Below are positions 5,608 to 43,331 of a stretch of 64,000 bases of DNA, one piece after another (the stretch's first letter is position 1; every line of letters begins with the position of its first letter). This DNA is from Gemmatimonadota bacterium. GTDB taxonomy: Bacteria; Gemmatimonadota; Gemmatimonadetes; Longimicrobiales; Gaopeijiaceae. Position numbers and translations under genes: made by a program. The DNA lies in NCBI GenBank assembly GCA_028873815.1, contig JAPPNN010000018.1, positions 1 to 64,000 of the forward strand. Reading direction: 5' to 3'. The notes under the pieces are model-generated. The model made no database searches. It saw only the letters and a list, made by a program, of their open reading frames with translations, and had not been told where the DNA came from.

Positions 5608-6897
5608 ATGTCTGGAACCATCAGCAAAACACGTTCTGCGGCGCCTATTCTCGCGCTTTTCACACCGGTTGTCCTGGGGGGCTGCGAGGCCGGATCCGAC
5701 GCGCCGGCCTCCAGCGCCGTGGCCTTCGAGGGCGCGCGAGTGATCGTGGGCGACGGTGCGGTGATCGAGGACGCCGTCTTCGTCGTGGACGATGGCCTGA
5801 TCGGGCAGGTCGGAGCGTCCGGGGCGATCGACATACCGGACGGCGCCGCCCGCGTGGACCTGAGCGGCAAGACCGTCATGCCGGCGATCGTCAACGCGCA
5901 CTTCCACCTGAATCCCGAACGGGGGGCGCGGACCGAGCAGCTCCGGCACTCCGCCTACTACGGCACGTCGCTGGCGGTAAGCCTCGGGCTGGACGATGGC
6001 GAGGCGGCCTTCGAGATGCGCGACGAGATGTTGACCGACGGCGCGCGTTCACAGACCGCGGGCCGGGGAATCACCTCCCCGGAGCCGGGCAGGAGCGAGG
6101 TTCCGCACTGGGTCACCACGGAGGACGAGGCGCGCGCGGCGGTGCGTGAACTGGCCGACCAGCAGGTCGACATCGTGAAGATCTGGGTCGACGACCGGGG
6201 GGGCCAGTACGAGCGGCTCTCGCCCGAACTCTACGGCGCGGTCATCGACGAGGCTCACGCCAACGGCCTGCGCGTGACGGCCCACGTGTTCCGCCTGGAG
6301 GACGCGAAGGGGTTGCTCCGCGCCGGTGTCGACGCCTTCGCGCACGGGATCCGCGACATGGACGTGGACGACGAGCTGGTTGCACTGTGGCGGGAGCGGC
6401 CGAACGTGGTGCTGGTCCCCAACCTGCCCGGGCCGGGAGTGGCCGAGAACTTCGACTGGCTGGCGGGGACCGTGTCGGCCGACCGGATCGCGGGAATGAA
6501 CGAGGGGTCGACGGACCGCCCCCAGGCGCAGGAGTTCTTCGGGATTCAGGCGCGCAACATGGTGCGGTTGCACGGCGAGGGCTTCCCGGTGTCGTTCGGG
6601 ACCGACGGCGGCTCACCGTGGGCCGTGCACCAGGAGCTGGCGGACATGGTGCGGGCCGGGATGTCCCCGGCGGACGTGATCGTGGCGGCGACGGGCACAT
6701 CGGCGGCGTTCGTGGGTGCCGACGACCTCGGCATGATCGAGGCGGGCAAGAGCGCGGACTTCATCGTGCTGGACGCGAACCCGCTCGACGACATTACCAA
6801 CACGCGCATGATCGACGCGGTGTATCTGCGCGGGGTGGCGGTGGACCGCGAGGGCATGGGCGCGGAGTTGCTGGGCCTCAGCCCCCCGGCCCCGTAA
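5608..6897 (+). CDS. Amidohydrolase-superfamily lipoprotein
   Basis: Metal-dependent amidohydrolase (429 residues) with a lipobox (VVLGGC, C26), so probably anchored in the cell envelope. Metal-binding H98 and H100 sit in NAHFH; a candidate carboxylated lysine lies in DIVKIWVDDRGG; later histidines are in TAHVF and FAHGIRD and the catalytic aspartate in SFGTDGG. It belongs with imidazolonepropionase-like/prolidase-like hydrolases common in Gemmatimonadota and related soil or marine bacteria. It follows the metalloprotease by 26 bases on the same strand and converges with an S9 peptidase, overlapping its 3' end by 20 bases. Substrate not determinable. Confidence 0.87.
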   Translation: MSGTISKTRSAAPILALFTPVVLGGCEAGSDAPASSAVAFEGARVIVGDGAVIEDAVFVVDDGLIGQVGASGAIDIPDGAARVDLSGKTVMPAIVNAHFHLNPERGARTEQLRHSAYYGTSLAVSLGLDDGEAAFEMRDEMLTDGARSQTAGRGITSPEPGRSEVPHWVTTEDEARAAVRELADQQVDIVKIWVDDRGGQYERLSPELYGAVIDEAHANGLRVTAHVFRLEDAKGLLRAGVDAFAHGIRDMDVDDELVALWRERPNVVLVPNLPGPGVAENFDWLAGTVSADRIAGMNEGSTDRPQAQEFFGIQARNMVRLHGEGFPVSFGTDGGSPWAVHQELADMVRAGMSPADVIVAATGTSAAFVGADDLGMIEAGKSADFIVLDANPLDDITNTRMIDAVYLRGVAVDREGMGAELLGLSPPAP

Positions 6898-42152: not shown

Positions 42153-43331
42153 GTGACCCCTCCACCCCTCACCCTTGTCATCCTCGCGGCAGGACGCTCC
42201 ACGCGCTTCGGCCGTCTCAAGCAGCTCACGCCGATCGGTCCCGGCGGCGAGGCCCTCCTCGACTACGCCCTCCATGACGGCGCGCTCGCGGGGTTCACAC
42301 GCTTCGTGCTGGTGATCCAGGAGGACAAGCAGGGTGACTTCGACGCACACCTCGCCCCCGCCGTCGCGGCCGGGCTCGACATCCGCTACGTGTACCAGCG
42401 GCTCACGCTCGAAGGGGGCGACCCGCCGTCGGGCCGCACTCGTCCCTGGGGTACGGGCCACGCCGTCCTCACGGCCGCGGAGCGCATCAGCGGCTCCTTC
42501 GCACTCTGCAACGCCGACGACTTCTACGGTCGCGGGGCCTTCGCAGCGCTGGCGAACGCGATTCGTGAAGGGGAAGGTGCAGCTGCAGGCGGTACATCCA
42601 TCGGCGTCCCGACGACCCCGGGCACCGAAGCCGCGGTTACGGCCGATTCGGCTCGCGATCCCCTGCCCGCATTCGTGGTCGGGTATCCGCTCGAGGTCAC
42701 GCTGTCCGAGAGCGGTGGCGTATCGCGGGGGATCTGCGACGTCGACGGAGCCGGCACGCTTCAGCGCCTGGCCGAAGGCTTCGAAATGCGCCGCTCCGGG
42801 AACCGGGCCCGCGGCCGCGACGTGGCCGGAAGGCCCGTTGACGTGCCCTTGGACACTCCGGTCTGTACGAACCTGTGGGGATTCCCGGAAGCTACGAGTA
42901 GTGACAAAATCCATGATGAATCTGTCGTAGTCGCTCGTGAATCCGGACACAAGGACGATAGTGAGCATGTAGCAGGTACTCGGGAGGACAAAATCATGGG
43001 TGATTCTGTCATGTCACCCAGTCGAGGACGCCACGCAAGTGGGCTGGTGCCCGGTTCCGGGATTCTGTACCAGCTGCACCGCCTCTTCTCCGAGTTTCTC
43101 GCCTCGGGCCCCGGACTCGACCGCGAGTTCTACCTCACCGAAGCGGTAAACGAATTGATCGCCGACGGACTGGTTCACTGCAGGGTGCTGCCCACCCGTG
43201 AAACCTGGCTCGGCGTTACGTTCCCCGACGATCACTCCCAAGTGGCCGAATCCCTGCAGTCGCTGGTAGACTCCGGGGTCTATCCGATGCGTCTTTGGGA
43301 CGCTCCGCCGACCCTCCCTGCCCAAGGCTGA
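42153..43331 (+). CDS. NTP-transferase-domain nucleotidyltransferase with an in-frame insertion
   Basis: A 392-residue nucleotidyltransferase: LVILAAGRSTRFGRLKQL (G-rich loop, residues 7-24), WGTGHAVL, CNADDFYG, then the C-terminal TNLWGF and EFYLTEAVNELIADG motifs typical of sugar-phosphate-like nucleotidyltransferases. It activates a phosphorylated small molecule with an NTP; the substrate is unknown. Between TNLWGFPEA and GILYQLHRLFSEF about 50-55 residues of unlike composition (Asp, Glu, His, Ser, Val rich) are inserted. The start is GTG. The insertion keeps the frame and the downstream motifs intact, so the gene may be functional. Confidence 0.82.
   Translation: MTPPPLTLVILAAGRSTRFGRLKQLTPIGPGGEALLDYALHDGALAGFTRFVLVIQEDKQGDFDAHLAPAVAAGLDIRYVYQRLTLEGGDPPSGRTRPWGTGHAVLTAAERISGSFALCNADDFYGRGAFAALANAIREGEGAAAGGTSIGVPTTPGTEAAVTADSARDPLPAFVVGYPLEVTLSESGGVSRGICDVDGAGTLQRLAEGFEMRRSGNRARGRDVAGRPVDVPLDTPVCTNLWGFPEATSSDKIHDESVVVARESGHKDDSEHVAGTREDKIMGDSVMSPSRGRHASGLVPGSGILYQLHRLFSEFLASGPGLDREFYLTEAVNELIADGLVHCRVLPTRETWLGVTFPDDHSQVAESLQSLVDSGVYPMRLWDAPPTLPAQG
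42890..43055. repeat. Palindromic element inserted in the nucleotidyltransferase gene
   Basis: This segment is AT-richer than the rest of the gene. It holds two related 24-bp dyads, 42903-42926 and 42987-43010, each beginning GACAAAATC and ending TCTGTC; the second is close to a perfect inverted repeat (GACAAAATCA with TGATTCTGTC around TGGG). Limits are approximate and come from where the encoded protein departs from and rejoins the expected family pattern. It resembles, in principle, palindromic elements inserted in reading frames of Rickettsia. Confidence 0.65.

Follow-up and report, generated by a model that had tools for sequence, protein, structure and literature searches.

An in-frame insert with two palindromic dyads in a nucleotidyltransferase gene

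The analyzed window is a 64,000-nucleotide stretch of DNA from a Gemmatimonadota bacterium. It contains an open reading frame at 42153–43331 (+ strand) that encodes a MobA-like/sugar nucleotidyltransferase (NTase) of 392 amino acids, as assigned by its match to the Pfam family NTP_transf_3 (PF12804; E 1.3e-8) and by its orthologues in the same genus. A sequence-only reading of this DNA had proposed that a foreign in-frame segment interrupts the gene between TNLWGF and the next helix, and the same-genus alignment bears out both the insertion and its location. In ten same-genus species without the insert, only one or two residues lie between TNLWGF and the following helix. The insert residues are missing from most same-genus orthologues, and this alignment indicates that the segment is a true insertion and not conserved family sequence. 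The insert occupies about 42888–43058 (+ strand), with approximate bounds that agree to about one codon with the 42890–43055 proposed previously; its size, estimated then as 50–55 residues, is about 57 codons. The frame is open throughout the insert region, without a stop codon.

As the earlier reading had noted, the insert contains two related 24-bp dyads. Dyad 1 (42903–42926; GACAAAATCCATGATGAATCTGTC) has the form GACAAAATC-CATGAT-GAATCTGTC, encodes DKIHDESV and represents a genus-wide motif. Dyad 2 (42987–43010; GACAAAATCATGGGTGATTCTGTC) has the form GACAAAATC-ATGGGT-GATTCTGTC and encodes DKIMGDSV. Both lie in codon phase 0 and are 79% identical to each other. They are separated by a 60-bp interior (42927–42986) that sets a start-to-start spacing of 84 bp and is not common to other loci. 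The dyad motif is matched 0 times in 100 dinucleotide shuffles of the window, and no Rfam family is matched within the window.

The insert exists in several states among the same-genus orthologues. Inserts of about 57 residues with both dyads are found in three genomes (G000, G004 and G019), shorter inserts with a single dyad (DRFxxESV or near) in five (G018, G007, G021, G011 and G017) and an eroded insert in two (G003 and G015), while G001 retains a stub without a dyad. In an AlphaFold model, residues 248–302 form a coil with a pLDDT of about 25 between a strand (residues 236–244) and a helix (residues 304–317); the model was built from a six-sequence input and is weak overall, with a mean pLDDT of 51. 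A second, more distant NTase homologue (about 40% identical), which has no insert, is encoded on contig 81 of G000 (locus L063), in the same genome.

The dyad motif is abundant in one genus

A search of 23 genomes from the genus with the motif GACARAWTC-N6-GAWTYTGTC, allowing up to two mismatches, gives 286 sites (per-genome counts summed), versus 2 for the reversed control. The genome search for dyads gives 15 sites at the same threshold in the genome that carries the window. Site-rich genomes contain up to about 30 strong sites each, located in and between unrelated genes. One of the richest, G021, has 31 sites in a single-contig genome, which indicates that assembly fragmentation does not explain the abundance; the genomes are mostly metagenome-assembled genomes (MAGs). 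Site-poor species (G006, G010, G014, G002 and G016) form a clade on the NTase+LmbE tree, which indicates that site gain or loss has been lineage-wide. Two of them, G006 and G010, still carry dyads like those of the AMP-binding enzyme, HisD and UvrA genes, as assigned by sequence likeness. In three species, G002 and G016 among them, motif matches are few and include GAGAGAATCGAGCGCGAATTTGCC, which falls at codon 2 of a PNPase-like gene (L087 1501–1524; also L088 and L092) and is probably a chance match.

Other genera of the family have 0–6 motif sites per genome, and the paired-site system is restricted mainly to one genus. Two genomes of other genera, G044 and G047, have 4 and 6 matches with 0 for the control, and one locus, L083, has a pair at 93 bp; these may represent a weak version of the paired sites outside the genus. 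In a two-dyad scan of public contigs, 30 of 35 are MAGs of Gemmatimonadota/Longimicrobiales. The remaining matches, one each in Geothermincola, a Clostridia MAG, two Treponema and Niastella, are probably due to chance. The named members, with record names such as RHO, COS and SB, suggest that the genus is mostly sponge-associated.

Paired dyads are spaced by integral helical turns

Each 24-bp dyad consists of inverted half-sites, (T/G)GACA(G/A)A(T/A)(T/A)C, around a free 6-bp centre, and the outer arm bases are more conserved than the inner ones. The start-to-start spacings of unique pairs cluster at 84–87 bp (46 pairs), 93–96 bp (15), 41–42 bp (6) and 50–52 bp (6), with one pair at 90 bp. Other spacings below 200 bp among unique pairs in the fetched loci are isolated single values, and the reversed motif yields zero sites in this analysis. 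The four clusters correspond to 8, 9, 4 and 5 turns of 10.5 bp, respectively. Codon phase does not account for the spacing, because 95 is not divisible by 3 and the 84-bp spacing is also found in intergenic pairs. As the loci were gathered via the motif search, the counts do not represent a random genome sample; the independent-locus groups, drawn by eye from the cluster list, comprise about a dozen unrelated loci.

Many loci carry an additional half-site 12 bp outside the dyad (GTGACAGATTCCGT-GACAGATTC), and sharing between loci beyond the dyads is confined to these outer half-sites. Beyond them, 14 loci selected as unrelated have interiors with an identity of 0.320 versus 0.287 after shuffling (central 30 bp, 0.320 versus 0.305); a distant relationship between two of these loci is possible and would only increase the identity value. 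The complementarity of the arms is near the independent-arm expectation at almost every position, with a modest excess at position 5.

DNA-level constraint on the sites

In three sets of intergenic orthologues in the genus (NCS2-permease side, Fic/IDH and amidohydrolase/S9), the arms are 97–100% identical and the spacing is exactly 84 bp, with an interior identity of 30–80%. A fourth intergenic set (DinB/DUF3179) is looser, with spacings of 84 versus 85 bp and arms 81% identical. The best-sampled coding site is dyad 2 of LmbE (10 species), in which rare codons are frozen: the codon identity given residue identity is 0.959 versus a null of 0.631 (sd 0.116), a value reached by 0 of 3219 null windows. 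Small clades alone give weak results in such codon-conservation tests, with 3–23% of null windows equally high. The arms are filled with AGA and TCT, which account for 2.3% of Arg and 4.1% of Ser codons in these genes. The encoded peptide varies (DRFxxESV, DTIRGEFV, DKIMGDSV) and the DNA motif is constant.

Some sites entered genes by loop insertion, as in NTase, LmbE and apparently an alpha/beta hydrolase, and others originated without an indel. Dyad 1 of LmbE in one clade replaces native codons, such as those of GEAADGSHLF, without an indel. The NTase gene also has a native-codon site (TDSEYYLSEA), at which five species carry GACAGATTCCGAGTACTATCTGTC or a sequence one base off, G011 has a weaker match and most others have GACCGCGAGTTCTACCTC-like codons. 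The simplest reading is that the native-codon sites would have arisen by substitution; ectopic conversion is an alternative.

Genomic context of the sites

Of 184 sampled sites, 122 are located in predicted genes (called by codon bias in the fetched loci) and 62 are intergenic. The genic sites occupy codon phase 0 in 78 cases, phase 2 in 41 and phase 1 in only 3; phase 1 sets an NGA codon in the right arm and thereby carries a stop risk. The host genes include those for PIG-L deacetylase, FAD/Fe-S oxidase, an AMP-binding enzyme, ArgS, PfkB, HisD, UvrA, an IMS-family (ImuB-like) polymerase and Fic, functions that are unrelated and share no common pathway. Genic sites are often distant from any start, and many of the intergenic ones are flanked by convergent genes. 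In G021, the sites are spread around the chromosome and occur both inside and outside the region of the dnaA antipode, extending to 1.99 and 2.19 Mb from dnaA (antipode at 2.24 Mb, with the origin assumed at dnaA). No macrodomain distribution of the sites is seen in this genome.

Putative sites for a DNA-binding protein

The insert is probably a pair of putative sites for a sequence-specific DNA-binding protein, selected on the DNA and with a role that is more likely architectural. Each 24-bp dyad would be bound by a dimer, and two dyads on one helix face, 8 turns (84–87 bp) or 9 turns (93–96 bp) apart, would be jointly bound in a cooperative or short-loop complex, sometimes joined by a third dyad at 4 turns and by the half-sites 12 bp outside. 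Genic sites would be fitted into tolerant protein loops, either by in-frame insertion or by construction from native codons. An architectural role, which might consist in marking or compacting the chromosome, similarly to the SlmA, Noc or MatP sites, is favoured over a regulatory one because most sites lie off promoters and the host genes are unrelated. We tentatively extend this to a genus-wide chromosome-marking system of phased palindrome pairs, in which selection for DNA sites could have inserted peptides into, and rewritten codons in, conserved unrelated enzymes; this broader proposal is possible but still doubtful.

The known architectural systems provide partial parallels. SlmA of E. 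coli binds about 50 short palindromes that are scattered and mostly lie in coding regions (PMC3116907), and the present sites resemble those of SlmA and of Noc, the B. subtilis nucleoid occlusion factor, in being dispersed palindromes that are mostly coding. In contrast to the 12-bp SlmA sites, which are excluded from Ter, the dyads here measure 24 bp, are paired at 8 or 9 turns and in G021 are also found near the dnaA antipode, and some of them came with an insertion. The matS sites, a 13-bp motif present in 23 copies (PMC3116907), are likewise dispersed palindromic chromosomal sites, but those described here are not confined to one chromosome region. Besides the weak small-clade codon tests and the intergenic share of the sites, several points stand against the preferred reading: a MatP homologue is absent (0 of 23 genomes; the E. 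coli control is positive), the distribution in G021 appears unlike that of MatP or SlmA sites, and even site spacing around the G021 chromosome is weakly supported (p 0.01–0.07, depending on the merging rule). No paper on such sites in Gemmatimonadota was found in the open-access literature, and none of the top open-access matches, either for the arm sequence or for bacterial binding sites located in genes, evidently describes them.

If true, the binding-site reading would provide a clear bacterial case in which selection for a DNA-binding site overrides protein-coding constraint, and inserts with the look of selfish protein-coding palindromes could turn out to be binding sites that the gene has accommodated. 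In-frame palindromic inserts elsewhere would need a test of spacing and arm conservation before they are labelled mobile. The motif and its spacing also constitute an exact bait for the putative DNA-binding protein of this uncultured lineage.

Alternative explanations

Operators of a classical transcription factor, a repressor or activator that acts by looping and has the host or downstream genes in its regulon, are an unlikely explanation. The pairs are helically phased, as are looping operator pairs of the LacI/GalR type, which place two dyads on the same helix face at integral turns; the lac O1–O3 spacing is 92 bp. The intergenic share of about one third exceeds the expectation for a gene-dense genome, and this excess, together with sites at starts or between divergent genes, means that regulation also fits. 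However, LacI/GalR operators are located at the promoters of one or a few operons, whereas here many pairs lie mostly within unrelated genes, often far from starts, or between convergent genes. Only a minority fit promoter placement (the divergent Fic/isocitrate dehydrogenase gap and the PfkB start), and a coherent regulon was rejected because the host genes are unrelated.

The sequence-only reading had likened the insert to the protein-coding palindromic elements of Rickettsia. A mobile element of that type, or one resembling MITEs or REPINs, tolerated in frame and with any function being secondary, is distinctly unlikely. It would agree with the true loop insertions, with the perfect extended palindromes (GTGACAGATTCCGT-GACAGATTC-N6-GAATCTGTC) whose outer half-sites are common to many loci, and with the numerous sites in convergent intergenic regions. 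Rickettsia palindromic elements (RPEs) were reportedly described by Ogata et al. in 2000 and 2002, and PMC2229807 is a review of them. Like RPEs, the sites are palindromic DNA that lies in frame in conserved genes, with matching positions in orthologues (NTase and LmbE alignments), and also occurs between genes. RPEs form families of repeats that share a unit of 100–150 bp (PMC2229807, PMC3767692), but here no whole unit is common to the loci: only the half-sites and the helical spacing are shared, the interiors are near shuffled, and the insert lacks a long stable stem-loop in the transcript. Furthermore, the spacing is quantised at 8 or 9 turns, several dyads lie on native codons without an indel, and the intergenic interiors diverge with arms and spacing kept. 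A MITE with a shared interior was rejected on the near-random interior. The sites resemble REP/REPIN sequences in that short palindromes are paired across an arbitrary spacer, but differ in being inside coding sequence; a RAYT/REPIN system was rejected, as no RAYT (Y1_Tnp) transposase is found in any of the 23 genomes with positive controls.

Core sites of a site-specific (tyrosine) recombinase are highly improbable. The arm–6-bp–arm layout with a free centre recalls dif, with its 11-6-11 layout, and the integron simple sites, which likewise have inverted arms around a centre. Nevertheless, the centres within a pair are often unlike, the sites hold orthologous places with no rearranged cassettes seen, and conservation is strongest at the outer rather than the inner arm bases. 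RNA hairpins acting in mRNA processing or stability have next to no likelihood: many copies can be drawn as perfect stem-loops, and the antisense strand of the insert has a somewhat stronger fold than its shuffled versions (z −1.99), but the sense strand does not (z 0.35), helical phasing is a property of DNA, and the arms do not covary, which argues against a hairpin. Finally, an ordinary variable protein loop, which would suit the low-confidence predicted loop that contains the insert, is refuted because the motif recurs in intergenic regions as well as in unrelated genes.

Other features of the sampled loci

At 6326–6444 of locus L118, the dyad GACAGATAGTATGCAGATTCTGTC covers the likely PfkB start codon and a second dyad is located 95 bp upstream; this pair is a possible regulatory case. 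At 1750–1845 of locus L008 (contig 38 of G000), degenerate tandem repeats (TTGCCGAATTGCCAGATGAARTC-like) lie beside a dyad and form a second, different repeat type; the gene near these repeats is presumably VPS10/sortilin-like.
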